A DNA stretch of 64,000 nucleotides. Source: Cyrtodaria siliqua. Its lineage: Eukaryota; Mollusca; Bivalvia; Adapedonta; Hiatellidae. The stretch covers positions 248,001 through 312,000 of the forward strand of contig JAWPHD010000290.1 of NCBI GenBank assembly GCA_037043455.1, given 5' to 3'. The position numbers and the translations under genes were made by a program. The notes under the pieces were generated by a model. It saw nothing but the letters and a program-made list of their open reading frames with translations. It was not told where the DNA came from and did no database searches. Shown one piece after another: positions 10,736 to 63,359 of this stretch. Each line of letters begins with the position of its first letter. Position 1 is the stretch's first letter.

Positions 10736-10744
10736 AATAGCCCA

Positions 10745-11790: not shown

Positions 11791-11960
11791 ATAAATTGTT
11801 GACTAACTTACCTTGAATACGTCAAAGACATATCAACGTATTGTTGTAGAAAGTAATGTTTGGTAAAAGACAAACTGGAATCCACAGAACCGTCATGTTA
11901 CAATTGACCGGTTGCTCATGCTGGATTACAGGGATAGTCATTATTAACCATATAACTTAC

Positions 11961-12309: not shown

Positions 12310-12400
12310 ACTGCTTGGAGAAAAGGTCTATTTATTTTTTTATTGATTTATTGATTGCTTTATTTATTGATAGAGTAATCGATCTATCATGTGTTTATTG
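12310..12400. repeat. TTTATTGA-type microsatellite
   Basis: A short tttattgattta tract directly abuts the 5' truncation point of the Penelope-like copy that begins near 12385. Confidence 0.7.
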
Positions 12401-17700: not shown

Positions 17701-18085
17701 TACGTCATGTTCTTATCAAATGTAGGTCAATATGAATGACCTTATCCCATTTTTCGCACTTCGTTTGTACTAACATTTAACTTTTTTTTTCATTAAGTCC
17801 ATTATTCAGATATCAAAAACAAAACGCTTTCAAATTGCACAAACACATCTACCTGAGAGCAACACGTATGCATGTATGTACACATGTATGGGATTTAACG
17901 TCGTTTTTAACAATATTTCATTCATATCATGACGGTGTATACTACATTACGTCAATGTTTTATCTCTGAAACTCGGCAGCACCAATTCGTATACTCCAGT
18001 TAATTCTACTGAGGATGATATTGTTTCCGCACATATCACTCGGTGCACTACTTTCAAGGCTGGTGTAAACGATAAGCAAAATAAA

Positions 18086-18748
18086 TTGCCTACCATGTAC
18101 TGGATTCATAAATTACATAAAAATCCGTATAAGGCTCGCTTTATTTTTAATTCTAGTGCCTGCACAACAACAAGCATCTCCAAACTTTTAACTTCTTGTC
18201 TTACTGCCGTTAAAGATCACGTTAAAATATATTGTGATAAAACTTATGAAAACTCTGGAATTAATTTATTTTGGTCTATAAAACATTCAGGAGACGTTCT
18301 CGATAAAATTTTCAATAAAGGTCAAGTTTCATCAATAAATACTTATGACTTCTCTACACTATATACAACCTTACCACATCATCTTATTAAATACAAGCTA
18401 ATTTCTCTTATTCAAAAAACATTCGCTAGAGAAAATACTACATTTGTGGCATGTAATAATATTAAAGCGTTTTTTACTAACGGCAGTTTAGACAATTATA
18501 CTATATGGACTTGCTATGAAGTTTGTGAAGCACTCATCTTCCTATTAGATAATATTTTCGTCAGGTATGGTACCACCGTTTATAGACAAATTGTTGGTAT
18601 CCCTATGGGTACGAACTGTGCACAACTTGTCGCAGATTTGTTTTTATTTTGCTATGAAAGGGATTTCATGTTGAGTCTTTCACCAGATACCCAGGCAGAT
18701 GTTATTGAAGCTTTAATGACATCTCTCGGTATCTGGATGACATATTGA
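18086..18748 (+). pseudogene. Reverse transcriptase fragment of copy C
   Basis: An open frame of 220 codons, continuous upstream to about 17965 without a stop. It holds RT motifs A (YDFSTLY) and B (GIPMGTN) but ends just where the YLDD catalytic motif should be read, because a base is missing near 18713; the YLDD block is present one frame over (18730-18745). Family: Penelope-like RT, related to telomerase RT. RNA-templated DNA synthesis is the ancestral role; this copy cannot perform it. Confidence 0.8.
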
Positions 18749-19650
18749 TATATTAATATGTATCCTAAAGAACTTCAGCTTAATAAAGCTAATATATCTG
18801 ATAATAACGCTTCTTTTCTTGATTTAGATCTCTCGATTGAAAATGGTGAAATAATTAGCAAAATCTATGACAAGAGAGATGATTTTAATTTTGACATTGT
18901 TAATTACCCCCACTTGGATGAGGATGTTCATCGAGCAACTTCTTATGGGGTGTATGTGTCTCAACTTATTCGTTTTTCAAGAGCTTGTACTCGAGTTGAG
19001 GACTTTAATATTCGTAATCTTTGTATAACTAAAAAGCTACTCAATCAACCATAAACTTCGTAAAACCTTTGCAAATTTTTGTTATCGTAACCCTGATCTT
19101 CTGTCCAAATATAAAAGTAATTTAAGGACTCTTCTGCGACGAGAACTATCACAACCTGACTTCTATGGTGATGTGATTTATAAACTTCGTAAGATTCTTG
19201 GTCATGATCACTTACATACTATCTTTGTTAAACTTGTTAAAATGTTTATCAAAAGAGGTTGTGACCCTATCATTTTGCAACGTACTGCATGCTTGGTGGT
19301 GGACCCTTTTACAGTTCGCCACTATGCTTTCCCCTTTAATTGTACGATGACCGGACAGGCTGTGGACCCTATGATGATGCCTACCTAAAGCCCATTGGGA
19401 CGGTGACGTTTGATGTTTGTCTATGATCTTTCCTGTCGTGCCCTTAATGGTTTATTCCCTTGTTGGTCTGGCTTCTACCAAGTCATTGAGTACCTTCATT
19501 GTGGCTTTCTTGGCTATTGTTTTTTTTTTGTATTATATTTACACGAGCAGATTTGTGTTTTACTTATATTGCCTATTGATGCTGCCTTGTTGGTTAGAGA
19601 TTAGATCATGGCGGGGATTTCTTTATTTACACTGTCCTGTTTTAATGGGA

Positions 19651-26127: not shown

Positions 26128-27696
26128 TGTCACAGGATGACCTTAGTGGTTGGGCTAACTCAGGAAAGAATCAATGACGGTGAATGCATTTACATAAGTT
26201 TAATGCAACTTTTAAAATATGTTTAATATATATACAATTATCTAAAAAAAACAAGCGAATACACAAATGAACTATGAAAAGAATGTTCTCCTGAACGTTT
26301 AAGACGTTCTTAGTATTGTTATAAATACTGAATGTCTAAGACACTAAAGTGTTGTTAAAGCTATAACAATGTTGATCTAGCGCGATAACTGTGATGCGCG
26401 AGAGCTCATGAAGATGATGATGCGCGAATTCAATGGATGATTGTCATCAAATGCCTTCTGTAAGGGTTGATGACGCGATGCAATGATAGTTAATCTCCAC
26501 TGAGATTGTGAATGATATTCCTCCAGTGAGGACTGGTAACGGGCCCACCTTGTGTCCCGGGGTTTGTCGTTAGTAAAACCTGGCTGCGCAGGTACGGGGA
26601 CCGTCTCCACCGCTTGTAACGTTAGTCGTGGAAGCTAAGCTCCACTCCTGGATATCCAAACCCAGATGGCTTACTCCAACCCTGGATGGCTTATATCCTG
26701 GATGGCTTAGTCCAACCCTGGATGGCTTAGGCTGTAATTATACATACGTTTTAGATGTCGGTTGACAAACATAACAATCTTGCAGAATTATCATTACCCA
26801 AACAAATCATTATTCAATCAATATATGTAAGCTGTACTAATGATGAGTAGCAATGTATACATATTCTACAACGCCATGTATACGCTATGTACGTCGCTGT
26901 TAATCAATGCCCCTAATACATGTAATATAAACATGATCAAATTACTCATATATTACACTCACTGAGTTATGCATGCACGCATTTATTCTTGTCACTCATC
27001 TCATTGTTAACTAATGTTAACAATCGTGTATTACAATCACCGAGTTATACGCCAACGTTAACTAATGCACCTATTATCCACTGTTATCAAATTAATATTG
27101 TTTTACAATTAATGATCAATTACAATAATTACATCTAATAAAGTAACTTCAAAATCATATGCTAGTCTAAAGTTATGTTTGAGAAACATCAATGCTAACC
27201 GGATGTCGTAACCGCCAAACAAGATGGCGCCGCCCACTGAATACAAATGTACGATAAAAGTTTAATAAAATTACTAACCACATGTTGCCTATGAATTTTG
27301 CCGTCCAATCTCTGTTCCAACAAAGTACTATCGATGATCCCGGCGAAAGCTAGAAGACAATGGGTTTTATAGCAAACATTACGCCCAAATCATTATTTTC
27401 CCCGTTCAGTCCGTGACAAACGTGGCTAAATCTACAGTATTGAATCTACACGAGAGGCCCCTTATACAATTTTGCCGTTTAAGGAAAATATACCTATCCG
27501 TTTACATGCATTAGCACAAAACTAAACTTATGACACGGCCTCTCTGGCGGCCACTTAATATGTGCACGCTTTTACGTGTTACATGAATAGATCATGAATA
27601 TTGTGAAATTGTTTCAACTCGAACAATAGATTTTGGGTGTAACCGATACAAGAGCTATATACGACCAGTACGCTCTACCCGTGACATTTTGTGACA
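26128..27696 (-). repeat. 3' LTR
   Basis: 1569 bp, tgtcaca...gtgaca ends. It contains a small tandem array of a ccctggatggctta-type word at about 26660-26730. Differs from the other LTR by a substitution near 26636 and a short cluster with one indel near 26917-26930. The 77-codon ORF inside occurs in both LTRs and is probably not a gene. Confidence 0.95.
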
Positions 27697-27697
27697 A

Positions 27698-27710
27698 CAT
27701 CTCCCCACTT
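27698..27710 (-). promoter_or_regulatory. Polypurine tract
   Basis: The minus strand reads aagtggggagatg directly before the 3' LTR, the expected site for plus-strand DNA priming. Confidence 0.7.
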
Positions 27711-27981
27711 AAAGAAAGTGCTACACTTTTAAAATTCAACAAAATGATAATTAATATTTACACGTTAAGAAACTATTAATTCTTCTGAGCAAACGAGCGA
27801 CAAAACGTACAAGCTGATCGCTCAATCGCTTGAGTATGTTAACTATTACCACTGCAGTTATAACCTAACTATAATATGTAATTACAATTTCAACACTATT
27901 CTACAATTGTACACTACCCTGTCGTAACATATACTACTATTGTACAATACACTGCAATACACTATTGTATTAAACCGGTCA

Positions 27982-29196
27982 TTATGTGCGGCGACTTAAA
28001 TAGTCTGCCCCAATATTGTCCTTTCCTCGGATCGCTTTAATTTTCATCCGGTAAGGCTGCAGAGTCAGTGCCCACCTCATTAACCTACTGTTAGCTACCT
28101 TTGCTTTATTCATATAAGCTAACGGTTGGTGGTCAGTCTCCAAGACAAATTCCTTACCAAAAACATATCGGTGGAATTTACTGACACTCCACACTACTGC
28201 AAGACACTCCCTTTCGATAACAGAGTAGTTACATTCCCGGGGTAATAGTTTCCGACTTGCGTAAGCCACGGGGAGACTACACCCATCTTGCTCTTGCAGT
28301 AGGACTGCACCCACCCCGATATCGGAGGCATCCGTTCTGAGGATAAACTCCTGGTCAAGTTCAGGTAATTTTAGTATTGGGGTTTTGACCAGACTCCCCT
28401 TTAAAGAGACAAAAGCTCGCTCCTGGCTTTCCCCCCAAGTTATCCTATTGGGTTGACCTTTCTTTGTCAAGTCTGACAAAGGTGCAGCTATAGCCGAAAA
28501 GTTTGGAATAAACTTCCTGTAAAAACCCGCCAACCCTAAAAATGACCTAACTTGTTTCTTTGTCTCGGGTCTTGGTGCTTCCTGAATTGCCTTAACCTTG
28601 TCGGGGTTGGGTTTCAATTTCTGGTCCCTCCCGACAACATGACCCAGACACTCTATATCTGCGTAACCCATGTGACACTTGCTAGGTTTTGCAGTCAGTT
28701 TAAACCGGCGTAGCCGTTCCAACAGATTACGTAGAGCCTTAATATGGTCTTCAAATGTTGTTGTAAACACCAGGATGTCATCTACAAAACTGTCTGTGTT
28801 GGACAAATCCTTCAGGACTTTCCTCATTAACCTACAGAATGTTGCTGGGGCGTTTACGAGACCAAAGGGCATGACCTTGAACTTAAGAAGTCCTTGCGAA
28901 GTTTCGAAGGAGGTCATCTCTTTAGCTCGGTCTGAAAGTGGGACTTGCCAATAACCTTTACTGAGGTCTAACTTGGAGAAATACGAATATCCCGCAAGTT
29001 TAGAGAATACCTCCTCAATATTAGGCATTGGTTCTGCATCAAAGATGGTACGTTTATTGAGCTGCCTAAAATCGATGCAGAATCGAATTGACCCATCTTT
29101 CTTCTTAATAAGTACGACTGGGGATGAAAATGGGGCGTTTGAAGGTTCGATGACACCCAATTTCAACATGTCTTTCACCTCCTCATCAACAATTGA
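27982..29196 (-). pseudogene. Gypsy reverse transcriptase-RNase H
   Basis: The frame is open from after TGA 29197-29199 to the stop at 27982; the first ATG in it is at 29178 (398 codons). RT motifs in order: APFSSPVVLIKKKDGSIRFC, FSKLDLSKGYWQ (motif A Asp), MPFGLVNAPATF (motif B) and SFVDDILVF (catalytic DD, about residue 130). RNase H follows with FILRTDASDIGVGAVL (about 283), an internal Glu in IERECLAV and ETDHQPL (about 347), and ends DNIGADYLSRRT. RT converts element RNA into DNA and RNase H removes the RNA strand. All catalytic acids visible here are kept. It lies downstream of integrase and ends 285 bp before the 3' LTR. A TAG and a TGA separate it from the upstream polyprotein. Confidence 0.92.
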
Positions 29197-29223
29197 TCAG
29201 GAGTGAAATGGAATGGGATACCC

Positions 29224-32061
29224 CTAATTTCTTATTGGTTCCCCTGATGTGAGTACAATATCATGTTGCACTCCATCTGTCTGCCCCGGGTTTTCGGACA
29301 AGACATCACTGAACTCCGAGAGTAAACTACCCATCTCTCGTTGCTGCTCTACACTAAGCATGCCCGATATGTCTACATCGGCTGCTCTCTCCCTACCTAC
29401 ACTAGTGGGAAAATACATGGGACTAGTGTCCTCACTACTGTCTTCCTCACTATCCTCAATAACTGCAACATTAACTACGGTTAACACCCCTTGTTGCACA
29501 TTATCGGTTCTACTTATATACTCTTTCAGCATATTCGCATGAAAGGTCTTTAACTTTCCGTTTATCTCGATACGGTAATCCATAGTGTTCACTATCCCTC
29601 TAACGTAAAACGGACCTTTCCATTGTAATAACAACTTGTTATTGTCGGTCGGGAGTAACAGTAACACCTGGTCATCTATCTTAAACTTCCTAGCTCTAGC
29701 TTTCTGGTCATAGTACCGTTTATACTTGGTACTTGCCTTAACTAACTGACTTTGAGCTATCTTACAAGTCTCCTCTAGTTTCTCCTTCAGATCTAAAACA
29801 TACTGATATGAAGTCTTAACCTCATCACTATCTACTTCACCTGCCCACATCTCTCTAAGAATCCTCATGGGACCTCTAACTGACCTACCGTACAATAACT
29901 CAAACGGAGAGAATCCTAAACTCTCTTGTGGTACCTCTCTAAATGCAAACAATAAAGCATTGAGATACTTGTCCCAATCTTTGGGTCTCTCGGTACACAT
30001 ACGCCGTAACATTTGCTTTAACGTCCCATTAAATCGTTCGACTAACCCGTTACACATAGGGTGATATGGTGTTTTCATGATTTGACGCAAAGACAATAAC
30101 CTGCTTACTTCAGCCATAAGTTCTGACGTAAACTGTGACCCACAATCAGTCAGCATTTCCTCTGGTAGACCTAGCCTACTGAACATATCAACTAATGCCT
30201 CAGCTACTCTCTCAGTTTCAATTGAGGGCAATGCTACTGCCTCCGGATACCTAGTTGCATAGTCTACCATGGTTAAAATGTACCTATTTTTCCTATCCGA
30301 CACTGGAAAAATTGGTCCAACTATGTCTACGGCTACCCGCTTAAATGGTGTATCTATCAGTGGCATCTGACCTAAATGTACTTTGGTCACTCGACCTTTT
30401 GGTACTGTCCTTTGGCATACATCGCAGGACCTACAATACCTAGTTACATCTCCACTAACGCCTGGCCAATAAAATTCTGCCAATACTCTATCTGACGTTT
30501 TCTTTACACCTAAATGACCTCCCATAATCGACTCATGAGCTACCTTAAGCACTGTCGTTCTATACTGGGTAGGTACCACTAATTGGTGAAACTGTCTACT
30601 ACCACTATCTTCAAATTCTCTGTACAATAACCTATTCTTATGTACAAACTTACAACTACCGGACCCTTTACACTTCTTTACTACACCATCCTTGGCCTTC
30701 ACCTTACAAGGACCTAATGACTCGTCTTGAGTTTGTGCTTCTATAAACTCCGCTTTAGATATGTCACCTACGGCTGCAGGAACCTTTAATTTTCTATAAG
30801 CCTGAGCTTGCTTCTGAACCTGCGCTCTAGTCTCTACGGCATTACTTATGCTACTTCTAAAATCGGACATTACCGGAAGTGCTGAACCATCTATGTTCCC
30901 TGTCGTTAAATCATACATCGGGTTGTCCATACATAGTGCCTCTGTAGTCCCTTTAAAGAAAGGTGTATCTACATCTATTCTCGCTATTGGCACGTGCTCT
31001 ACCGATTTATTTAACAACATACACGGTGACTGTTTACCTACCAACTGGTCATCCGTAACTAAACTACGCCTAACTACCACACCTGTACAACCTGTATCCC
31101 TCATTACAATTACGTCCGTGCCATTCACTCTACCATCTGCCGTTGGAAGATTTGCATACGGAAAGAGACATGTTCCGATCTTCGCCATTACACCATCCGC
31201 TTTAACACAACAGCTACTACTCTCGGTTTTAATAACCGGACTATTACTACCTCTGCCTCTACCTCTACCACGGTTTTGACCACCTCTACCTCTACCGAAA
31301 TTCCATGGGTTGTTAAAACCTTGGTTCTGACTCCCTACATTGTTGTCCACTCTACTATTTTCACTAAAATTGTCTACGACAGCGGACACTTTCACCGCTT
31401 TCCTACACTCATGTGAAGCATGATTCCCATTACAGTGACGACAACGAATAAAAGGTCTACCTATGTTACCACTATTGCTACCTCCTCTAGCACCCATCGA
31501 ACTACCTCCTCCTCTATAGTTTCCACTCTGGCCTTTCTGTTTATGATCGTCCCCTTGCCTATCTCTAAAAGTTCTGTCTTTCGACACTACATTATAAGCT
31601 CCACCTCTAGCCTCGGCAAACTGATCTGCTTGAGTTGCCATTTCATTTACACTAGTTAGTTTTCTTTCTTTAAGAAATAAGAACAGATCTCTACTACAAA
31701 CATTGAATAGCTGGTCCCGCAACAAGAAATCTATGAGGCCCTGATAAGTCTGCGCTACCTTCCCTAACTCTAACCACCTATCTAAGTAATTTCTAGACCT
31801 ACTAATAAACTGAATAAATGACTCGCCTTTCTCAGGCAGACAAGCTCTAAACCGCTTTCTAAAACCTTCTTCAGTTAACTCAAATCTCTTTAAAAGAGCA
31901 TCCTTTAACTTGTCATAGTCAAGAGCATCTACACTAGGTAATCTAGAAAATACATCTAAGGCCTTGCCTCTCAATAACGAACTTAAATGAACTGCCCACT
32001 TATCTTTGGTCCATTCCTGTAACTCAGCATAACGCTCGAACCGTAACAAGTAACTGTCCAT
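29224..32061 (-). pseudogene. Gypsy gag-protease-integrase polyprotein
   Basis: An open frame of 945 codons. A gag-like helical domain is at residues 1-150. A glycine/Arg-rich linker leads to a CCHC zinc knuckle (CRHCNGNHASHEC, about 205). The aspartic protease has its DTG active site (MRDTGCTG, about 320). Integrase has an HHCC zinc domain (HESIMGGHLGVKK ... CRSCDVC, about 505-545) and the DDE core (AVDIVGP, LTDCGSQF about 637, NGLVERFNG about 670). A GPY/F-like module (GPFYVRGIV, about 815) follows, then the first RT-proximal residues. Integrase lies before RT, unlike standard Gypsy. The frame ends at TAG 29224-29226. Residue positions are estimates from DNA coordinates. Confidence 0.92.
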
Positions 32062-32157
32062 GTTATCTTTGTCAGCATCAAAGTATGGTAACTTCGAACC
32101 TTTTAACTTCCCAGAATAACTATCTTTCCCTTCAGTTTTACTTTCCTTACTATGTGT

Positions 32158-32634
32158 CTAAGCTGCTTCCAAATCTAAAGCTAACTTATGCTCAAACTCT
32201 TTTTGCTCCCTTTCCATTATCATCTTAGCCTTAGCTAGTCTACCATCTGTTTCGAACCTCTCATGTTCTAACTCTTGCTTCTCCTTTACTATTCTACTTT
32301 CTAATTCTACCTTCTCTTTAGCTAATCTACCTTCTAATTCTAGCTTCTCTTTATCAGCGTCTAGCTTCTCTTTAGCTAACCTACTTTCTAATTCTAGCTT
32401 CTCTGTGGCTAGTCTACTTTCGTCATCTCGCTTCTCTTTTGCTAATCTACTTTCGAATTCTAACCTATCTTTCTCTTCATCCCTTTCCCGCTTTGCTAAT
32501 TCTCTTTCCTTAAGTCTAAATTCCCTTTCCCTAGCCTGTTCGTCTTTAACAAAGGTTCTAAGCTCCTCTCCAGCATACCCTAACTCCTTACCCATTTCCG
32601 TAAGATCCTTTATGGACGTCATGTCTATAGACAT
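32158..32634 (-). pseudogene. Gag N-terminal coiled-coil segment
   Basis: 158 codons, ATG at 32634, ending at TAG 32158-32160. After a short start (MSIDMTSIKDLTEMGKELG) the protein is an almost continuous charged helix of ESRLAKEKLELE-type heptads, which predicts a long coiled coil. It is in the same frame as the gag-pol frame at 32061, and the stretch between is open, so the TAG probably interrupts one ancestral gag. A multimerisation role in the particle is likely from the family. Confidence 0.8.
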
Positions 32635-33280
32635 TGTGAACTACACACTACAATAATTACAATACACACGTCACTAATAATTCTACTCAACTAACTACTA
32701 ATGGTAAGTCACTGTGTCCTCAGTAAATACCTGGGCATCATCATAGGACAAGTTACATACACATTTGTACTAGCGCTAACTCCTAACGGTTATGTATAGA
32801 TAGTATCTAGCTTCCACAAAACATATACACTACATAAAATATCTATATTTGATATTGGACATAACCTTAAACAATCATAGAAATGTGCATAACATGTACA
32901 TGTATATTTACTTCTCCCATCAATATAAGTATACTCGAGTGTCACAACATGAGTAGAACGTCTTGTTCGCCAACCTAATTGGATACTATGTGTAAATCAA
33001 GGGAGGTAAAACAAACACCCAAATTATTGAGCAAAAGTGCCTCAGACCCACTCGTGTAGACCACTGCGACCTCGCGCCAAGGAAAGAACGGACAAAACAA
33101 CAGTTTGGACTCACCCTACCCTTGTCGTGTCTTGACTTGTCTTCCAAGCTGTGGCCGTGATCGTCGACAGTCGCCTTGATGGATCAGAGGGTGGTACACA
33201 ATTCTAAAATAATAAGTAGAGATTTAGTATATCATAATAAAGATCACTTATTGATTCTTTCCCTCCGTAGTCGCCCAAAA

Positions 33281-33297
33281 TCCCACTTCTGACACCA
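33281..33297 (-). promoter_or_regulatory. Primer-binding site
   Basis: Two bases after the 5' LTR the minus strand reads tggtgtcagaagtggga. It begins TGG, complementary to a tRNA CCA end. I cannot name the tRNA with confidence. Confidence 0.8.
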
Positions 33298-33299
33298 GT

Positions 33300-34869
33300 T
33301 GTCACAGGATGACCTTAGTGGTTGGGCTAACTCAGGAAAGAATCAATGACGGTGAATGCATTTACATAAGTTTAATGCAACTTTTAAAATATGTTTAATA
33401 TATATACAATTATCTAAAAAAAACAAGCGAATACACAAATGAACTATGAAAAGAATGTTCTCCTGAACGTTTAAGACGTTCTTAGTATTGTTATAAATAC
33501 TGAATGTCTAAGACACTAAAGTGTTGTTAAAGCTATAACAATGTTGATCTAGCGCGATAACTGTGATGCGCGAGAGCTCATGAAGATGATGATGCGCGAA
33601 TTCAATGGATGATTGTCATCAAATGCCTTCTGTAAGGGTTGATGACGCGATGCAATGATAGTTAATCTCCACTGAGATTGTGAATGATATTCCTCCAGTG
33701 AGGACTGGTAACGGGCCCACCTTGTGTCCCGGGGTTTGTCGTTAGTAAAACCTGGCTGCGCAGGTACGGGGACCGTCTCCACCGCTTGTAACGTTAGTCG
33801 TGGAAGCTTAGCTCCACTCCTGGATATCCAAACCCAGATGGCTTACTCCAACCCTGGATGGCTTATATCCTGGATGGCTTAGTCCAACCCTGGATGGCTT
33901 AGGCTGTAATTATACATACGTTTTAGATGTCGGTTGACAAACATAACAATCTTGCAGAATTATCATTACCCAAACAAATCATTATTCAATCAATATATGT
34001 AAGCTGTACTAATGATGAGTAGCAATGTATACATATTCTACAACGCCATGTATACGCTATGTACGTCGCTGTTAATCAATGCCCCTAATAATAATGCCTA
34101 TAAACATGATCAAATTACTCATATATTACACTCACTGAGTTATGCATGCACGCATTTATTCTTGTCACTCATCTCATTGTTAACTAATGTTAACAATCGT
34201 GTATTACAATCACCGAGTTATACGCCAACGTTAACTAATGCACCTATTATCCACTGTTATCAAATTAATATTGTTTTACAATTAATGATCAATTACAATA
34301 ATTACATCTAATAAAGTAACTTCAAAATCATATGCTAGTCTAAAGTTATGTTTGAGAAACATCAATGCTAACCGGATGTCGTAACCGCCAAACAAGATGG
34401 CGCCGCCCACTGAATACAAATGTACGATAAAAGTTTAATAAAATTACTAACCACATGTTGCCTATGAATTTTGCCGTCCAATCTCTGTTCCAACAAAGTA
34501 CTATCGATGATCCCGGCGAAAGCTAGAAGACAATGGGTTTTATAGCAAACATTACGCCCAAATCATTATTTTCCCCGTTCAGTCCGTGACAAACGTGGCT
34601 AAATCTACAGTATTGAATCTACACGAGAGGCCCCTTATACAATTTTGCCGTTTAAGGAAAATATACCTATCCGTTTACATGCATTAGCACAAAACTAAAC
34701 TTATGACACGGCCTCTCTGGCGGCCACTTAATATGTGCACGCTTTTACGTGTTACATGAATAGATCATGAATATTGTGAAATTGTTTCAACTCGAACAAT
34801 AGATTTTGGGTGTAACCGATACAAGAGCTATATACGACCAGTACGCTCTACCCGTGACATTTTGTGACA
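33300..34869 (-). repeat. 5' LTR
   Basis: 1570 bp, near-identical to 26128-27696. As the 5' LTR of the leftward element it should hold the promoter; I did not identify a convincing TATA box. Confidence 0.95.
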
Positions 34870-47619: not shown

Positions 47620-47743
47620 CACACCCCTCTTCGTCGAAGCCATTTTGGCAGTCACGATGTCCATCACAAATCGTCATAAAGTCTACACACTCGGTATTGT
47701 TGTTGTCGCAGTGGAAACTAGAACTCTCTTTGCAATCGAATGC
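47620..47743 (-). pseudogene. LDL-receptor class A domain exon with a 1-nt frame lesion
   Basis: On the minus strand an acceptor cattttcag ends at 47744 and a donor gtatgt starts at 47619. The first part reads FDCKESSSFHCDN. The second reads TECVDFMTICDGHRDCQNGF, then DEEGC, one frame over. Together they have the six-Cys and CDGxxDCxxGxDE pattern of LDLa, a calcium-binding extracellular module. The change of frame occurs in the gacaacaaacaat stretch, where one base appears extra. The exon is 124 bp; without the extra base it would be a symmetrical phase 1-1 exon, typical of LDLa modules. It is a pseudoexon or a sequencing indel. Confidence 0.7.
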
Positions 47744-47816
47744 TGAAAATGATATGTCAGACTATAAATATAATGCAGCTAATTTTAAAAAATATAAACA
47801 AACGAACTTGTACCAA

Positions 47817-48043
47817 AATGATATATAGGGTCCTATAGAAACCACAGCGTCCGAACGCAATGGCATCGTAGGTCCGCACTGTACTGCAAATAAGGACTTG
47901 AAACTACAATGAAAGAGACAAAAAACAACAGAAAGGGTGGTAAAGACAGGATAACCGACTTGGAACGGTCAGTAGGCAATAAGGCCTACTGGTTAGCTTG
48001 AATCGATTTTATATGGGCACAATCCTCGCTATTATCCTGTCTT
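47817..48043 (-). repeat. 3' terminal repeat of copy D (pseudo-LTR)
   Basis: Nearly identical to 51687-51911 and in the same orientation. The shared start is aatgatatatagggtcctat. Pseudo-LTRs of this kind, arising from tandem copies, are a known feature of Penelope-like elements. Confidence 0.9.
47943..48043 (-). ncRNA. Conserved 3' UTR hairpin of copy D
   Basis: A perfect 12-bp outer stem (aagacaggataa with ttatcctgtctt) encloses an 8-bp inner hairpin CAGTAGGC-cttatt-GCCTACTG. Copy C keeps both stems with different sequence. Confidence 0.65.
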
Positions 48044-48249
48044 CAGCGCACAAATAGACAAGACAGTGTAAACAAAACTACATCCGATCAAAAGGAAATC
48101 TCTATCAATATAGTCCACATCCAGAGAAACCCACTGAAGATATACATACAAAATAATAAACATCTCAGGATGTATCCAGAATCGTACTGAACAACCATAG
48201 TAGTTGCAGCTAAAGAGAAAACCAATCTAGGGTACGACCATAAAACCCG

Positions 48250-48316
48250 AGAGACGAAGGCTCATGCATACCACTCCCTTAGTTGGGGTTTCAGTAGGTA
48301 CAATCATAGAGTCCCA
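48250..48316 (-). promoter_or_regulatory. SECIS-like element overlapping the ORF end
   Basis: On the minus strand: ATGA (48307-48304), exactly 12 nt, AAA (48291-48289), a CCCC...GGG mini-stem, then a returning strand and TGA (48264-48262). Flanking helix II is about 9 bp with wobble pairs and a bulge (tgtacctact with agtggtatg). The AUGA/AA/UGA spacing is that of a type 2 eukaryotic SECIS, which directs UGA-to-selenocysteine recoding. Copy C keeps the layout (ATGA 19371, 12 nt, AAA 19387, CCC-att-GGG, TGA 19411). Pairing is modest, so it remains a candidate. Confidence 0.55.
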
Positions 48317-48720
48317 AGAGGTAGTCCAGTCATCGCACAAGTGAAAAGTGAAGCGTAATGACTGACTGTAGAGGGGTCAATCACTAAATATGCAGTGCGC
48401 TGTAAAACCAAGGGGTTATATCCTTTTCTGACAAACTTCCTGATTAGATTTGTAAAGCGGTCAGGAAACTCGTCAGACCCCTTTAACTTTCGAAGTTTAT
48501 AGACCACATCTCCATAAAATGAGGGTTGTGATATGCCTAGTCGCAGAAGTGTTTTAAGGTTGGTGTTGTACTTTTCCAGCAGACCCTCGTTACGGCGGTA
48601 GAATTTAGAGAAAGATCTACGTAGTTTGTGATAACGAAAACCCTGCTGAAGAAGTTTACTTGTAATAACTTGATTACGATCATTGAAGTCTATAGCATCA
48701 TTACACGCTCTAGCAAATCA
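48304..48720 (-). pseudogene. C-terminal thumb region of the copy D RT
   Basis: After a frame shift near 48718 the coding sequence continues in another frame to TGA 48306-48304. It holds FYGD-VVYKLRKLKG, RKFVRKGYNPLVLQRTAYLV and CAMTGLPLGTL at the end. The same region of copy C ends FNCTMTGQAVDP followed by TAA. The stop TGA is part of the AUGA of the SECIS-like fold. Confidence 0.75.
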
Positions 48721-49523
48721 ATGAGCTGGGAGATATACACCCCATATGAGGTAGCACGAGGTACATCTCCATCCAGGTGTGGATAGTTAACGATGTTAAA
48801 ATTGAAATCATCTCTCTTATCATAGATTTTAGTATGAATACAATCATTTGAAATCGAGAGATGAAGATCGAGAAATGGTGCTACAGTATCCGAACTGTTG
48901 GCTTTATTCAACGTGAGCTCTGGTGGATAAATGTTAGTAACCATATGAGCAAAGAACGGATTATCAATATTGAGTATGTCATCAAGATACCGAGAAGTAT
49001 TATTAAAGGCATCAATAATTTCACCCCGGCTAGCAGGTGACAAACTCAACATAAAATCTCTTTCATAGCAGAAAAAAAACAAATCTGCAACAATTGGCGC
49101 ACAGTCAGTACCCATAGGAATACCAACAACCTGGCGGTAAATAGTTTTACCGTATCGTATAAAGATGTTATCCAGAAGAAAAGATAAGGCTCTACAAACA
49201 TCAGTACAAGTCCACATATTATACTTATCAATGGGGGCGATAGTAAAGAAAGCCCTGACATTATTACAAGCTATAAATGTTGTACCTTCTCTAGCAAATG
49301 TCTTCTGAATAAGCTGAAGCAATTTATTTTTGATAAGATGATTTGGTAGTATAGTATACCGTGTAGAAAAGTCGTAGGTGCTTAGAGAAGAGGCATGAAA
49401 ATGCTTACACCGTAATTTGTCAAGAACTTCTCCAGAGTTTTTGATAGACCAAAACAGATTGATTCCTGAGTTCTTGAAGGCCTTTCCGCATTATTTTACA
49501 ATATGTTCTTTAATCGCGGAAAG

Positions 49524-49526
49524 TCA
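49524..49526 (-). other. In-frame TGA, selenocysteine candidate 5
   Basis: Lies between ISKLLTS and LSAIKEH. Copy C has TGT (Cys) at exactly this position in LLTSCLTAVK, the best internal support for a Sec/Cys exchange. Confidence 0.65.
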
Positions 49527-49784
49527 GGAAGTCAATAGTTTTGATATATTGGTCGTGGTACATGAACTAGAATTAGCGATAAAACGTGCTTTGTAAGGAA
49601 TTTTGTGAAGTTTGGGTATCCAGTACATTGTAGGGAGCTTCATCTGCTTACTAATTACAGAAACCTTTATAGTCTCCATAAAAGTCACATGCTGGGAAAC
49701 AATGTCCGTCTCCCGCAGAGGTGTAGTTAGATAAGCAGAAGTGCTCGCTAGCTCAGCATTCAAAGTATTGATATAATGTAGTCG

Positions 49785-49787
49785 TCA
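49785..49787 (-). other. In-frame TGA, selenocysteine candidate 4
   Basis: Lies between ASNNIIIV and RLHYINTLN. Penelope-type RTs commonly have Cys here; no other copy in this window covers the site. Confidence 0.5.
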
Positions 49788-50198
49788 GACAATAATTATA
49801 TTGTTGGAAGCTTTGTCTGCTGGAACTAGAGCAAATTTAGTATGTAAATTCTGAATACCCTTCTTAAAGTGTCGTAAATTGTGAGTGGAAGGCCGTGGAA
49901 GCAGGGATGGATTTGATTTGTAAAATAAAATACGTAATTCAACAATTTCTGAAATAGTTTTCATTCAAGCAGTAAGTGCATGTTTATCTGCTTTTTCTCG
50001 CTTACACCACTTTGAACAGAAATCCGTTAAAGAACCCGCAATTTCATTGCGACAGACAACAAAATCAATATCAGATGGAATGCGATACTTAGGCCCTTTG
50101 GCAATTAAATGCCTAATCCTCTTATCCTCAATTACATCAAGATTTCCAGTAAGAATGTGGCCGGCAGGTTCGTAACAAAATTTAGAATTTTGACAATC

Positions 50199-50201
50199 TC
50201 A
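50199..50201 (-). other. In-frame TGA, selenocysteine candidate 3 (CxC-type motif)
   Basis: Lies between IETSIPTD and DCQNSKFCYEPAGH, giving U-x-C at the position of the linker CxC motif. In copy E both positions are Tyr (TAT), explainable as decay of TGT. Confidence 0.55.
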
Positions 50202-50410
50202 ATCAGTAGGAATAGATGTCTCGATCTGAAGATCAGAAACGATCCTATTATAATTGAAAATAAGATTTCTAGTAGATTTCTTATACTTGTAACATATAAC
50301 AGGAGTCTCAATATTCTTGAAATACTTTGGAATTTTGTCAGTCACCCGCATATCATTAAAAATACCGGCTAAATTAATGAAATCGATGCCTTTATCAACA
50401 TCAGTTATCT

Positions 50411-51100
50411 TCAAAACAAATGCCTTTGATGGTCAGATGGAGCATCTATATGTGGACGCAAAATACGTTGCGTGTAACTTTGAATAAAAGATGCAACCTC
50501 ATATAATGGATTAGTACGGACATAAATGGCATCCGCTTCTTCGTCAAGTTTCTGTAAGCAAGAAAAAGACAGACTGACTACTTTGCTAAGGAGGGCGTGT
50601 CTACCCGATGTTTTATAAATAGAATAAAGGTCTGCAACAGTAAAGACTTTCTTAAATTTACGTTTAAGATTATGGTTCTTTCGGAGACCATGTGACCGTC
50701 GTTTACGTTTACGAATAGACAATGTGCTAAAAGTATCTATATCTGGGGTATCGGAAATGTTTCCTTCTTGATGAATGTTATCGTTTAACCCCAATGGATA
50801 AGGAGTTTGTAAATGCTTTATCCATTTGAGTTCAGCAATATATCTAGCTTGTATCTTGTAACCTTTGGTAGCAGTATTATCAAATTCAAGATATTCCACG
50901 GGCTGAATGCTAACATCATCTATGGAATGCCCCGAATCCCCAAAGTGTGTATAAAGAAAGTTTTTAAATCGTTTCGACTGACGCATTTTATATAAATGTT
51001 CACGAAAACAAACTTTCATGGATCGACCAGTTTGGCCTATATATTGTATACCACATTTAGGATGATTTCAGGTCAAAACAAAAACGATATTATTTGACGA
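50411..51100 (-). pseudogene. Naiad GIY-YIG endonuclease, between two in-frame TGA codons
   Basis: The frame continues from the upstream ORF across TGA 51101-51103, then TGA 51068-51070, then reads CGIQYIGQTGRSMKVCFREH: the GIY-YIG core with the following conserved Arg/His segment. Further on are FLYTHFGDSGHSIDDVSIQP and a basic stretch (RKRKRRSHGLRKNHNLKRK). It ends at TGA 50411-50413, where the next coding frame is one base over, so this last TGA is from a frame shift. GIY-YIG enzymes nick target DNA for insertion. The two early TGA codons lie where Penelope-type endonucleases carry conserved cysteines. Confidence 0.85.
51068..51070 (-). other. In-frame TGA, selenocysteine candidate 2
   Basis: Follows NIVFVLT and precedes NHPKCGIQYIG, 11 codons after candidate 1 and a few residues before the GIY-YIG core. 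Confidence 0.55.
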
Positions 51101-51103
51101 TCA
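51101..51103 (-). other. In-frame TGA, selenocysteine candidate 1
   Basis: Follows SVSIPSDIN and precedes SSNNIVFVLT; the frame is open on both sides. It lies in the N-terminal part of the endonuclease, where family members carry a Cys. Confidence 0.55.
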
Positions 51104-51520
51104 GTTAATGTCTGAAGGTATACTGACACTAAACTCTCTACCATTGGTAGTGGACTTAATAGTGGACTTTTGCGACAAGTATTTACATGCACTACACCTT
51201 TTCGAGTTGCACTTAAGGATAGAGGGATAGAACGTACGTCTACTGTTTAACTTATTAACATTAACTGGTAGTCTAACTTTATATCGATTAAGTACAGAAG
51301 TTTTAAGTGGTGTTAATTTAATAGAAGCAGTATTTCTGAATATAGAATTAGTGCCAGGAATATGAACGGTAGATGCCGAATGAAGATTAATTCGTGATAA
51401 ATTGATCGATAATTTACGTTTAAAAATATTAGAATTTCCCTGGTGAAGATAAACAGTAGACACAGAGTGTAGTTTAAGAGGAGAAAGAATGACTTTTGGT
51501 GTTCTTAATATACGACTCAT
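51101..51520 (-). pseudogene. Naiad N-terminal region
   Basis: 139 codons from ATG 51520 to TGA 51101-51103, in the same frame as the endonuclease. Ser/Thr/Lys-rich with repeated LHSAS/LHSVSTV phrases and a Cys cluster near the end (KCNSKRCSACKYL). The position upstream of GIY-YIG fits the start of the Naiad ORF. The start is chosen because it is the first ATG in frame after the 5' pseudo-LTR. Confidence 0.75.
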
Positions 51521-51686
51521 GTTTTTATAAGGTGTAAACTGTTAAAAGTAAAGCGCAAAACCACGCTAAAACAACGTCGAACGTCGCCATCTCTATAGGA
51601 TGGGTGAAAATAACAACATTGATCACATGCACGGGGAGATGTTTTACAACCGCCACACTGCACAAGTGACACAGTTGTAAATGCAT

Positions 51687-52027
51687 AATGATATATAGGG
51701 TCCTATAGAAGCCACAGCGTCCGAACGCAATGGCATCGTAGGTCCGCACTGTACTACAAACAACGACTTGAAACTACAATGAAAGAGATAAAAAAAAAAA
51801 AAGGGTGGTGAAGACAGGGTTACCGACTTGGAAAGGTCAGTATGCAATAAGGCCTACTGGTTAGCTTGAATCGATTTTATATGCGCACAATCCTCGCTAT
51901 TAGCCTGTCTTCTGTAGAGGGGTCAATCACTAAACATGCAGTGCGCTGTAAAACCAAGGGGTTATATCCTTTTCTGACGAGCTTCCTGATTAAATTTGTA
52001 AAGTGGCCTGCTGAAGAAGTTAACTTT
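51687..52027 (-). repeat. 5' pseudo-LTR of copy D
   Basis: 51687-51911 matches 47817-48043; 51912-52005 matches 48366-48460; 52007-52027 matches 48642-48663. It is therefore a 3'-end copy with internal deletions placed upstream of the ORF, in direct orientation. Confidence 0.85.
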
Positions 52028-53260
52028 TGTCATTCAGGTCATACGTTTAGTAGCTTTAGTGTTCAACCGGTTGAATATACAATTTATGTTAATGATGCTA
52101 TTACAACTTTACAGTAAAAGCTGGACATATTGCAAAACTAAAGTGGATGAACATCCTGCAGACACCGTATCAACTGGGTCTTATAAAACATTTCAAAAGA
52201 TCCTAATATTGATATTGTTTTCTGTATTTTTTATTCGAAGATTACAGGTGTCAAGTTCGTAGACGTAAGGGTAATATCAATCGTAAATCGCGTGTTACTA
52301 TGTCAGTCACTGATTTACCTACTCGTTTAAATAGTCTAAACGCATTCAATGCTTTCACGTTTCACCTCTTCGTACATTTCTTCACTTACGTTGATCGACG
52401 AGGAAACAGACACAATATGAATTCATTTAGATCCTTTGTATAACACTGCTTCCATAATTCAAAGCTACTCATAACATATTCTCAAGAACTCGAATCATGT
52501 CGGACATTTTCTAAAACTACTTTAGGGTATTGTTTTATTGATATGACTATAATATTTCAAAATAATCATGTTATTGATTATATTCCTAAATATTTAAACA
52601 ATTCAAGAAGTTCTATAATTAGTTATAAGTATAAAAAACAATCAGAAATATTATTTTCAACTGCAACAAAATAGTTTCTGACCTTGACATAGAAAGTAAC
52701 ATTCCTAAGGAATATGAGTATAAAACATTAACAGTTTGCTACGCTCCGGCAGGTCATGTCAGCACTGGTCATTTTTCTATTGTAGATAAACTTATTCTGC
52801 ATTTGTTTTCTAAAGATCCGAAATATAGATTGCCTTCAATTATTGATTTTAACGCAAGTCGTGCTCAGATCGCCCAATTCATTGAGGAATATAGTATAAA
52901 ATGATGTCGTAGAGAACATTCGGACCCGAACTCTATTTTTACTTGGAAAAAGTACGTTCTTAAAATTATAGAAACCCGTATTAATTTTTATAATGCTAAT
53001 CCCTATTTACTTCCTCCACAATCTGTGATTTGGTTCGTAATTTAAAATCGGAAACTATGGAGCACTAATTCGTATATTCCAGTTCAATCTATTGAGAATG
53101 ATATAGTTTCCACGCATATCTCTAGGTGCACTACTTTCAACACTGCGTTAGAAAAACATCAAAACAAATTTCCAACTATGTAATGGATTCCTAAATTACA
53201 TAAACAGCTTTATAAACCTATTGTCGTACGGTCTTTAAACATCATGTTAAACAATAGTGT
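52025..53260 (+). mobile_element. Degenerate inverted Naiad copy E
   Basis: The plus strand has CHSGHTFSSFSVQPVEY near 52028-52080, SDLDIESNIPKEYEY and VCYAPAGHVSTGHFSI near 52690-52780, TWKKYVLKIIETRINFYNAN at about 52940, and WIPKLHKQLYKP near 53185. Stops, frame shifts and a deletion before the RT are obvious. It sits head to head with copy D. Confidence 0.8.
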
Positions 53261-54847: not shown

Positions 54848-54944
54848 GATGTCTATGTAAGTGACTTGTACTCTGCTGTTGACCGTAAAACAACATTCAA
54901 TTCATGTTAATTCTTATTCAATTCAATATAATTCACGCAGGCAC

Positions 54945-55419
54945 GATCGCGCGCGCGCACACACACACACACACACGCACGTACGCACTCACGCACGCAC
55001 GCACGCACGCACGCGCGCACACACACACAAACGCGTACACAAGTACATTCATGTACACACACGTACACAGGCACGCGCAAAAACACAAGCACATATATGC
55101 ATGTACGCACGCAAGCACACAAGCATGCACGCACGCGAGCACGCACGCACGCACTCACACACGAACACATACACACGCACGCACGCACACACACACACAC
55201 ATGCAAGCAAGCACGCACGTACGAATATAAATGTACAAACACGCACGCACTCACAACAAGTAAACACACACGTACAGACAAGTACACACATGTACATACA
55301 GGTACACACATGGAAACACATGTACAAATGCACACGTACACACACATACACAAGTACATACATACACAGAACACGTATACACACGTATACAAACGTACAC
55401 ACACACGTACACACGAACA

Positions 55420-55450
<31 letters not shown>

Positions 55451-56818
55451 GCAAGCAAGCAAGCAAGCAAGCACGCACATACAAACACAAACATACACAT
55501 GCAAGTACACGCACGTACGTATATACATGTACACACACGCACGAAAGCACTCACAACACGTAAACACACACGTACAGACGAGTACACACATGTACATACA
55601 CGTACACACATGTAAACGTACACACATACACACGTACACGCACACACGTACACACACACACACGCACGCACGCAGGCAAGCACGTACGCATGCACACACA
55701 AACACACACATACACATGCAGGTACACGCACGTACGTATATACATGTACACACACGCGCGCAAGCACTCACAACACGTAAACACACACGTACAGACAAGT
55801 ACACACATGTACACACATGTACACATATGTACACACACGTACACACATGTAAACGTACACACATACACACGTACACAGACACACGTACACACACTCACAC
55901 ACACAAACACACATATACACACACTCACACACACGCCTGCACGCCTGCACGCCTGCCCGCACGCACTCACACACGCCCACACAAACACACACACACTCAC
56001 ATGCAAGTACACGCAAGTACGTATATACATGTACACACAGGCACGCAAGCACACACAACACGTAAACACACACGTACAAACAAGTACACGCATGTCCACA
56101 AACATTTACGAGTACACACACATACACACGTACACACACACTCACGTACACACACAAACACAAACGCACGCACGCACGCAAACTCGCACGCACGCAAGCA
56201 AGTACGCACACACAAACACACACACATGCAGGTACACGCATGTACGTATATACATGTACACAAACGCACGCAAGCACATACAACAAGTAAACACACACGT
56301 ACAGACAAGTTCACACATGTACGCACACGTACACATATGTACACGTACACGCATACACACGTCTACACACACACACATACACCAACACATGTACACACAC
56401 CCACACACCTATCCCCCCACACACAAACACATACACACACACACACACACACACGCACGCAAGCAAGCACGCACGCACACACAAACACACACACAAAAAC
56501 ACACATGCAAGTACACGCACGTACGTATATACATGTACACACACGCACGCAATTACTCCAAACACGTACACACACACGTACAGACAAGTACACACATGTA
56601 CACTCATGTACGCACACGTACACACTCACGTACAAACACACACACACACACGCGCGCGCGCGCGCGCGCGCGCGCAAATACACGCACGTTCGTACATACA
56701 TGCACACACACACGTACGCACGCACTCACTTACAACACGTAAACACACAGACGTACATACACGTACACACATGTGCACACACGTACATACATGTACACAC
56801 ACATACATACATACATAC
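54945..56818. repeat. CA-rich higher-order minisatellite
   Basis: acac/gcac/gtac words dominate. A longer phrase (gtaaacacacacgtacagac preceded by cacaacac) recurs near 55252, 55552, 55769, 56054, 56279, 56558 and 56731. Spacing alternates about 300, 217, 285, 225, 279 bp, so the higher-order unit is about 510 bp. A (CG)n run lies at 56652-56675. ORFs of up to 678 codons (His/Thr-rich plus, Cys/Val-rich minus) are translation artefacts. Confidence 0.95.
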
Positions 56819-57260
56819 ACTTCTCAAAACTGCTAACTACACCGCTCACGTTTTGGATTATATATATCGATGGGTTGAATGTTTTTCAATAAAATAAAAA
56901 GGAAATACCAATTCAATCATTTTTACATCATTTCATTTTATTTTTTTCATGGGCAATGCTAGAACTAAACCACAATAAGCAATTACAAACGACCCATGTA
57001 AACACTAAAGTCACACTTTTCCCATATCTACATGTGTATCTACATGTGTAGATATGGGAAAAGTGTGACTTTAGTGTTTACATGGGTCGTTTGTAATTGC
57101 TTATTGTGGTTTAGTTCTAGCATTGCCCATGAAAAAAATAAAATGAAATGATGTAAAAATGATTCAATTGGTATTTCCTTTTTATTTTATTAAAAAACAT
57201 TCAACCCATCGATATATATAACCCAAAACGTGAGCGGTGTAGTTAGCAGTTTTGAGAAGT
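56819..57260. repeat. 442-bp near-perfect palindrome inside the minisatellite
   Basis: Arms 56819-57032 and 57047-57260 pair with about 3 mismatches. The outer ends are acttctcaaaactgctaact and its complement; the centre is ctacatgtgtatctacatgt. The CA-rich array continues on both sides and is not itself inverted. No ORF in the arms. Confidence 0.95.
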
Positions 57261-58083
57261 GTACATACATACATACATGTACACAAAGACACGCATGCAC
57301 GCACGAATACACGCACACAAGCTCGCGCAAACACACAAACACACATAAACACAAACACACACAAACACACACTCAGGCACGCACGCAGCCGCACGCACGC
57401 ACACACACACGTAGACGGACACGTACCCACACGTACATACATGTACACACACTAACGCACTCACTTGTAACACCTAAACACACACGTGCATACACGTACA
57501 CACACAAACATACACGCACGCACGTGCCAACACACACATACATATATGCATTTACGCACGCATGAACACATGTACACACATGTACATACATTTACACACA
57601 TGTACACAGGTACTCTCACACACACACGCTTGCACGCACGCACACTTACACACACACAGACACACACACGTAAACACACGTTAACACACGTAAACACACG
57701 CGCGCGCGCTCACACACACGCCCAAGTTCACACACGTACGTACGTACATACATACATGTACACACACGCACACACGCACTCACAACACGTGAACACACAC
57801 GTACAGACAAGTAACCACATTTACACACACGTACACACATGAACACACACGTACACACATGCACACAAGCACGCGCAAACACACAAACACATGTATGCAT
57901 CTACTTACGCACGCACGTACGCAATCACGCACACAAACACACGCGCGCGCACACGCGCACGTACACACACGTACATACATGTACACACACGCACGCACTC
58001 ACTCACAACCCGTAAACACACACATACAGACAAGTACACACATGTACAAATACGTACACACATGTACACATACACACGCATAA
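57261..58083. repeat. CA-rich minisatellite, right part
   Basis: The same phrases as 54945-56818 (cacaac-cgt-aacacacac near 57781 and 58005). Confidence 0.95.
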
Positions 58084-58326
58084 ATAACCTGACTGTGTTG
58101 ATGAGACATGTGCACACCGCAAGGCCATATGAACACGCAAATTTTACATGCAGGACATTGCATTATGTTATGTTGTTGTTTCTTTTTTTTTCGTTCGGTT
58201 TAATCAAATGAAACTAAAACACATTATCATGGTTTAACGCGAATTGATACACATTAGTATTCTTTCAAAACGTCTCCAGTACCTTTAATATACCTAAATA
58301 TATATTTGCGATTGCACTCAGGTGAA

Positions 58327-61659: not shown

Positions 61660-62835
61660 GATTGACAAATAAATATAATCAAATATAATAATGATTGCTT
61701 ATTTTATTTATAGGGTATATACGTTTCATTTAAGACTAGTCATCTGTAAAACATTCGATCAATTTAACACAATTTAGAGACTTGTATTTGCATGTACAAC
61801 GTACACAAATCCTCACTAATTGAATATGATAATGGCACTCGTTCATTTAAACATTATTAAAAGTATTCGTTAACTCACTATTAATCAATGGTTCAGAGCT
61901 GGCAAACGGACTAAGAATTAAAACCATTGCCTAATCATTTCTATATCGTCAAGTTGTTTCTGAATCCATATCTTATCGTATTCTAACAAGTAGGTTTTAT
62001 CCATCTTGGTTCCATATAACATATATGGGGTTTCAGTACCGAAAAAAACAACCTCCTACTCACTCATTCATTGGTTCATTTATTCCCATATTCAGTCACT
62101 CAGTAGACTAATCAGTAAAACATAACACTTAGATCTAATTGCAAAGAACTAATTCAAATTATGTAAAATAGATAATCAAAAACCAAATATAGACAAAATC
62201 GCTTTAATATAAACTCACTTAAACGGCAATTGAAATTAGGGTTAACTGTGCTATCGGATAACTGTTTCATAGCAATTTTACTCGACATATTAGCCCCTTT
62301 ATCAATGTAAAAAATATAGCAGTTCCAGCAGGGTAAGTGTTTCCTGTTTTTCCCCTTTTTAAATAAAAATCACGTTTCTTAAGAAGATATAAGAGTTCTA
62401 ATATGTTGCATACGGCATACGCGTTCATATTTACATGAAGTCATTTAGGACAGTTCTTTTTTAAAACTATTATGAAACTACAAGAGCTAGACGACTAAAT
62501 TTTATGCATGTAGTATAAAATTATGTTTCTCTACCAAATGTCTTAAATTGCTGACCTTGGGCTCATATTTGGCCCCAACCCAAGGGGTGAAAACGAGTTA
62601 CATATAAACATCTTTAAAACAATATGTTCTGAATCTACACGAGTTAGACATCTAATAGTTTGCATGTAGCATTTATTTAAATAATATGTGTTTACCAAGT
62701 ATATTCAAATGGTAACAGGAAAGTCAACCGAAAGCATTCATTAAGTGTACACTTTTTCTATCAGTAGAACCGAAATGAACTGTTTGTAGATCAGTGCGAA
62801 GTCGTTTTGTGAAGGACTAATTCGGTATGAGATGG
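61660..62835. other. No recognisable gene
   Basis: AT-rich, no long ORF; likely intronic. Confidence 0.4.
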
Positions 62836-62838
62836 GAG

Positions 62839-63318
62839 CATACTATACTACCATGGACATATATACAGGGATATAGTATAACTACATACTATACTACCAT
62901 GGACATATATACAGGGATATAGTATAACTACATACTATACTACCATGGACATATATACAGGGATATAGTATAACTACATACTATACTACCATGGACATAT
63001 ATACAGGGATATAGTATAACTACATACTATACTACCATGGACATATATACAGGGATATAGTATAACTACATACTATACTACCATGGACATATATACAGGG
63101 ATATAGTATAATTACCATGGACATATATACATGGATATAGTATAATTACCATGGACATATAAACAGGGATATAGTATAATTACCATGGACATATATACAG
63201 GGATATAGTATAATTACCATGGACATATATACAGGGATATAGTATAATTACCATGGACATATATACAGGGATATAGTATAATAACCATGGACATATATAC
63301 AGGGATATAGTATAACTA
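62839..63318. repeat. Tandem array with two periods, 46 bp then 34 bp
   Basis: ccatggacatatatacaggg starts at 62851, 62897, 62943, 62989, 63035 and 63081 (46-bp steps), then 63115, 63149, 63183, 63217, 63251 and 63285 (34-bp steps). The shorter unit lacks the 12-bp actatactacat-type segment. Confidence 0.95.
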
Positions 63319-63359
63319 AGAAAATGCAATTATTGTTCAAAGCAATCAAAACATTGTTT

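Follow-up and report, generated by a model that had tools for sequence, protein, structure and literature searches.

A Naiad-type retrotransposon family of Cyrtodaria siliqua with five UGA codons at conserved cysteine positions, probably read as selenocysteine

Does a reading frame that is crossed by five TGA codons, all of them where a cysteine is expected, belong to a dead transposon or to a selenoprotein? The question is raised by a retrotransposon on the (-) strand of a 64,000-nucleotide stretch of the genome of the bivalve Cyrtodaria siliqua (contig JAWPHD010000290.1, positions 248,001 to 312,000; hereafter the window), which an initial annotation made from the letters alone had called a selenocysteine-coded Naiad. 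We consider it very probable that the element belongs to a multicopy family of Naiad-type Penelope-like retrotransposons whose single protein, made up of a GIY-YIG endonuclease (EN), a CxC linker and a telomerase-like reverse transcriptase (RT), is a selenoprotein, with five UGAs read as selenocysteine (Sec) by means of the host tRNA-Sec and a selenocysteine insertion sequence (SECIS) of the element's own. The analysis confirmed that the annotation was right in substance, and its selenocysteine interpretation is supported.

TGA codons at five cysteine sites in two families

The genome (2.88 Gb in 26,948 contigs) was searched for copies of the window element, here termed family A, which gave at least 49 matches, with 40 of 8,613 candidates scored; most matches were 94 to 97% identical. 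Reading 20 of 38 chosen loci yielded 31 aligned segments, of which 23 exceeded 1,500 aligned columns and were used, the eight short ones being dropped. Two loci, L016 and L017, proved to be one insertion on two apparent haplotypes (99.83% over 6,455 bases), and L017 was left out of the stop tally as an allelic duplicate, leaving 22 segments.

All five TGA triplets that had been reported are present, the coordinate first given for each being that of its last base, and they are numbered here as sites 1 to 5 (Table 1). The claim that they share one continuous reading phase did not hold, as the window copy uses three (-) frames: one for sites 1 and 2, another for sites 3 to 5 and one more for the C-terminal part. 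The two frameshifts responsible are private: the break near 50417, which covers two adjacent columns, is absent from 19 to 21 of the 22 other segments and that near 48719 from all 22. The contrast drawn between many TGAs, a single TAA and no TAG in this copy stood as far as the lone TAA went, itself a private change, and had overlooked a sixth in-frame TGA, also private.

The case for a non-random pattern is stronger at the level of the family than in this single copy. TGA occupied 89 of the 93 segment cells pooled over the five sites in the 23 segments; without L017, the count was 84 TGA, no TAA, no TAG and four cells with TTA or TCA. Elsewhere in the open reading frame (ORF), the 22 segments carried 20 TAA, 12 TAG and 6 TGA, none common to more than two segments, and the only stops held by a majority upstream of the terminal stop were the five TGA sites. 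If decay yielded TGA in 6 of 38 cases, five TGAs in five sites would have a probability of about 1e-4 (hand arithmetic), with their placement at cysteines not yet counted. Reading TGA as sense lengthened the longest frame in 18 of the 20 loci, compared with 8 for TAG and 7 for TAA, and the longest frame so obtained was 991 codons (L011), 106 of these beyond the ORF stop.

The expectation of cysteine was then borne out in a set of 63 homologous proteins, in which counts cover those spanning each site and the predominant residue was cysteine at all five. Both EN sites are invariant cysteine columns (Table 1). Site 3 has Cys in 32 of 37, Trp in 4 and Ser in 1; site 4 has Cys in 48 of 56 and Trp in 8; and site 5 has Cys in 38 of 62, Ala in 11, Gly in 10, Ser in 2 and Val in 1. 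The RT-part sites 254 and 392 rank among the most conserved cysteines. The 12 Trp entries at sites 3 and 4 come from eight relatives with 45 to 61% identity and look like TGA codons translated by a gene caller with a table in which TGA is Trp; one of the eight (P0007) has a further Trp where the alignment places the terminal stop. Several close relatives are annotated as proteins that either start past a Sec site or carry Trp there, which suggests that Sec-coded elements may be broken up by gene callers.

A sibling family, C, with approximately 65% protein identity to family A, resides in the same genome and is represented in the window by the truncated copy C. Its genome search gave at least 45 matches, with 40 of 11,800 candidates scored, and 11 further copies were fetched. 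In these, TGA was found at site 1 in 5 of 6 (TGC in the sixth), at site 2 in 6 of 6 and at site 4 in 11 of 11, while TGT was found at site 3 in 9 of 9 and at site 5 in 11 of 11; three putative Sec sites are thus common to the two families and two are Sec in A but Cys in C. Stops elsewhere in the 11 copies amounted to 21 TAA, 4 TAG and 2 TGA, none common to more than two. The TGT of copy C at site 5, which had been offered as an internal control, is therefore the rule for its family, and the alignment of copies that had been proposed as a check returned TGA/TGT/TGC exchange between or within families at three of the five sites, while TAA and TAG were absent from all five. A TGT at 17936 was considered as the residue of copy C for site 4 and rejected, because the similarity of other copies to copy C starts only at about 17941 and all 11 fetched copies have TGA at this site. 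Two side observations concern family C: a further decayed Naiad copy that is closely similar to it lies at 12382-13821 (+), with a degraded SECIS at 13763, and three family-C copies are spaced at about 55 kb along one contig (G000:C973:112346-113599, 167941-169186 and 221860-223105), perhaps in a large tandem segmental repeat.

In our reading, the copy tallies in families A and C rule out random decay, by which a dead copy would simply have picked up the TGAs as nonsense mutations: the window copy does carry two frameshifts, a TAA and a TGA of its own, but the five TGAs recur across the family where other stops are mostly TAA or TAG and common to at most two segments, all five stand at cysteine sites, and three are found in the sibling family as well.

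The SECIS hairpin, the end of the reading frame and the host machinery

On the coding strand, a match to the Rfam model SECIS_1 directly follows the conserved C-terminus. The model's cut-off is 35 bits, which was exceeded by one family-A locus (L014, 35.3 bits) and by a sibling copy (L029, 38.0 bits, E 8.9e-5; the sole report among L029 to L031), so that a hairpin with the AUGA/UGA core and an A-rich apical loop is found at the 3' end. Pairing was assessed in 17 hand-picked segments of the 33 listed, and pairs were counted by script in a register set by hand, because the MAFFT alignment was wrong in the 3' half of the set; the register allows one bulged U in family C, a choice that favours pairing. 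In family A, all 15 pairs form in 6 of the 7 rows other than the window copy and A2, and 14 of 15 form in A2. In family C, all 14 pairs form in 5 of 7 rows, and the 13.7 kb copy forms 8 of 14, its helix I not being fairly scored because the row ends two bases short. Between the two families, four pairs (one in helix I and three in helix II) are altered on both sides, as is expected of compensatory change. As a side observation, L029:1-343 holds what is left of a third element, which resembles family A (88.6% identity) and has a SECIS of its own; in this SECIS, Watson-Crick pairs have replaced three G-U pairs and one pair has been lost.

The hairpin also coincides with the end of the frame. The family-A ORF stops at the UGA of the SECIS core AUGA in 17 of 19 segments (the other two have TGT and CGA), including TGA 48306-48304 of the window copy. 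The frame of copy C crosses the core and ends at a TAA in the apical loop, and the sequence around this TAA is alike in most family-C relatives, as judged by letters rather than frames. The last residues of copy C (MMxxT) are encoded by the 5' arm of the SECIS. A C-terminal MM..T is present in all 19 close relatives (of 32) that keep the extreme C-terminus and in none of 31 distant proteins. Because the MM..T codons match the family-C SECIS 5' arm, the overlap of ORF and SECIS seems to be conserved beyond the C. siliqua genome, where it is known from proteins alone. One relative, P0004, has Cys at all three sites that it covers and is without the MM..T end, a single case that proves little.

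The host search covered tRNA-Sec and SepSecS. The tRNA-Sec that had been named as a check was found, with 7 of 17 matches over the cut-off, five of them at 75.7 to 79.7 bits, and for SepSecS all 8 matches were over the cut-off, 7 of them as successive pieces in order on one contig; the SepSecS search matched in 3 of 14 control genomes. The mitochondrial cox1, translated with table 5, resembles that of an invertebrate, perhaps a bivalve. Amino-acid changes between L011 and copy C were fewer than silent ones, with a ratio of the two (dN/dS) of 0.134 over 473 codons, 0.085 over the 88 codons between sites 4 and 5 and 0.137 over the 385 codons after site 5, ratios that are rough because dS is high. 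These values suggest roughly estimated purifying selection behind the UGAs, and hence that the parts behind them were translated while the families diverged.

In the mechanism that we favour, the five UGAs at conserved cysteines would be read as selenocysteine by the host tRNA-Sec machinery, directed by the SECIS hairpin that the element's own RNA carries at its 3' end. Actual Sec insertion, like any benefit from it, is something we infer from this pattern. The SECIS may in addition double as the end of the frame, its 5' arm encoding MMxxT and, in one family, its core UGA serving as a true stop, presumably too near the hairpin for recoding, while the five internal UGAs specify Sec and sibling families lose or gain single Sec sites with the system kept; we offer this more elaborate scheme tentatively and with rather less than even confidence.

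Several points weigh against the selenoprotein reading. The case as a whole is built from DNA sequence, and the window copy itself is broken. Its SECIS, with 11 of 15 pairs formed, scores 20.8 bits, no more than chance would give when taken alone (E values of 2.3 in 6 kb and 0.23 in 601 bases), and its fold is equalled or bettered by 122 of 200 shuffled sequences (z 0.40). Just 1 of 20 family-A loci exceeds the Rfam cut-off. Site 5 is the least conserved of the five because 24 of 62 homologues, mostly distant proteins, have Ala, Gly, Ser or Val there. Codons for residues other than Cys occur at two sites, namely TTA in L010 and L020 at site 1 and TCA in L021 and L023 at site 4. Four further columns with at least 5 Cys hold 1 to 4 Trp, so that Trp turns up outside the UGA sites as well. 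The search for tRNA-Sec also matched in all 14 control genomes, 5 over the cut-off, and dS is near saturation (2.0 overall, 4.0 between sites 4 and 5 and 1.9 after site 5). Lastly, the whole ORF is open in none of the 20 loci even when TGA is read.

Decoding of the UGAs by some other route, be it generic readthrough, a Trp or Cys suppressor tRNA or codon reassignment, appears very improbable. The sequence alone indicates only that the UGAs are passed, but both families have SECIS hairpins at the 3' end, the exchange partner is Cys, tRNA-Sec is present, and the family-A ORF itself stops at a UGA; the SECIS and the Cys partner disfavour readthrough as Trp or otherwise. A last alternative, compatible with Sec decoding, is that the system was real in the past and every copy in the genome is now inactive. 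The lack of a single open ORF speaks for it, but it is judged on just 20 of the 38 chosen loci, and the identity of 94 to 97% among most family-A matches, some of them in tandem units, points to fairly recent activity; we regard general inactivity as rather unlikely.

Identity of the element and other features of the window

Naiads are marked by an N-terminal GIY-YIG EN, a CxC motif, an RT close to that of telomerase, pseudo-long terminal repeats (pseudo-LTRs) and tandem units, and further by EN CCHH residues, the lack of a canonical hammerhead ribozyme and an insertion bias to microsatellites. In the family-A element, the GIY-YIG EN is N-terminal to the RT within one ORF, and pseudo-LTRs and tandem units with 5' truncation are present. 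The CxC motif between EN and RT reads U-D-C, and its columns hold C in 30 of 35 (W in 4) and 32 of 35 aligned homologues. EN residues C140, C151, C156, H175, H192 and H198 are invariant across 18 rows, including the window row with TGA written as C, and the Naiad CCHH motif is presumably to be sought among them. No Rfam hammerhead match was above the cut-off in the window or the 20 copies, which leaves room for weak forms, and no microsatellite was obvious by eye in the 3' flanks. Pfam gave no RT or GIY-YIG match for the element protein, whereas fold comparison gave both; the predicted fold of the RT part of L011 matches telomerase RT, and for the EN model Foldseek on its own returned nothing at E <= 0.001.

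The 3' limit of the element is sharp, the match ending at window positions 47808-47817 in 18 of 20 family-A loci, and the 5' ends of these loci are variable or joined to tandem units. A decayed, older Naiad fragment at 52025-53216 (+), with 26 to 56% identity in pieces and TAT at site 3, adjoins the 5' end, and a possible host-gene exon of the LDL-receptor class A type was seen by eye next to the element at approximately 47640-47740 (-).

Table 1. Coordinates of the Naiad-type features in the window; Sec assignments are predicted.
Feature	Position	Strand	Remarks
Naiad-type element, family A	47814..52027	-	5' tandem-unit remnant, pseudo-LTR, ORF, SECIS, 3' pseudo-LTR; outer 5' limit from the initial annotation
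Single ORF of family A	48304..51520	-	~1071 residues, EN then RT; two frameshifts in window copy
N-terminal GIY-YIG endonuclease domain	50801..51220	-	ORF residues ~101-240
RT active-site motif YLDD	48978..48989	-	sequence reading
Upstream pseudo-LTR	51684..51912	-	92.6% identity to 48044-47814
3' pseudo-LTR	47814..48044	-	pairs with upstream pseudo-LTR
Upstream tandem-unit remnant	51912..52006	-	94.7% to 48460-48366
Site 1, putative Sec codon, residue 140	51101..51103	-	TGA 12/14, TTA 2/14 segments; Cys in 17/17 homologues
Site 2, putative Sec codon, residue 151	51068..51070	-	TGA 14/14 segments; Cys in 17/17 homologues
Site 3, putative Sec codon, first Cys of CxC motif (50193-50201)	50199..50201	-	TGA 22/22 segments; sibling TGT 9/9
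Site 4, putative Sec codon, conserved [C][RK] site, start of RT part	49785..49787	-	TGA 19/21, TCA 2/21; sibling TGA 11/11
Site 5, putative Sec codon, LTS[C]L site	49524..49526	-	TGA 22/22 segments; TGT in 11/11 sibling copies and copy C
Private TGA, decay rather than Sec	49965..49967	-	0/21 other segments
Private TAA, decay	49491..49493	-	0/22 other segments
SECIS hairpin, window copy	48251..48315	-	5' core ATGA 48307-48304, 3' core TGAG 48264-48261
Copy C, sibling family C, 5' truncated	17942..19423	+	TGT at site 5 (18197-18199)
SECIS of copy C	19363..19423	+	Rfam SECIS_1 29.8 bits, E 0.0019, below cut-off 35

Elsewhere in the window, an LTR retrotransposon occupies 26128-34398 (-), with ORFs at 32061-29227 and 29178-27985 and direct repeats, namely two blocks of 300 bases that are 100% identical and separated by about 7.2 kb. 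Its domains are of Gypsy type, and a weak match to SCAN and the integrase domains come ahead of RT-RNase H, an order with the integrase before the RT that we take to be Gmr1-like. Tandem repeats lie at 10711-11849 (unit 56), 54923-58123 (many short, 8 and 12) and 62793-63350 (46/34 bases), and an inverted repeat of 240 bases, 95% complementary, at 56799-57280. ARAGORN found no tRNA in the window.

Relation to known selenoprotein systems

Naiad Penelope-like elements were reportedly described by Craig, Yushenova, Rodriguez and Arkhipova in 2021 (Mol Biol Evol 38:5005), with selenoprotein Naiads carrying several Sec in clams and spiders. The window element is like them in its N-terminal GIY-YIG EN, CxC motif, telomerase-like RT, pseudo-LTRs, tandem units and several Sec. 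What may set it apart are the five-Sec and three-Sec families in one genome and the ORF that ends in the SECIS, both of which published Naiads may share. To our knowledge, Sec-dependent mobile elements are known only as a few Naiads. A literature search on Naiad or Penelope-like selenoproteins and on SECIS over coding sequence showed, among the titles listed, no paper on selenoprotein retrotransposons, from which we claim no absence from print.

Two other systems offer comparisons. Selenoprotein P (SELENOP) is a host plasma protein with two SECIS in the 3' untranslated region (PMC5133445). It is like the retrotransposon in that signals at the 3' end of its mRNA serve several UGA-Sec codons; it differs in that one SECIS was found in the retrotransposon, overlapping the ORF end. 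The other is a GPX4-like selenoprotein of a poxvirus that we take to be fowlpox virus. According to PMC6769590, its SECIS lies inside the reading frame and its canarypox relative is Cys-coded, so that SECIS overlap with coding sequence and a Cys-coded relative are points of likeness. It is a viral enzyme with one UGA-Sec, whereas the overlap in the retrotransposon covers the last codons only and the stop lies within the SECIS.

Since selenoprotein Naiads have reportedly been published already, the element is a further example of a known phenomenon, and a well-supported new one. The way in which stop codon and SECIS overlap makes for a recoding arrangement that is simple and open to test. The nested sets of five and three putative Sec sites in one genome are a natural comparison for why a conserved Cys becomes Sec, and some of the replaced cysteines stand in a putative metal site of the endonuclease. 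The same comparison bears on whether transposition may then depend on host selenium.

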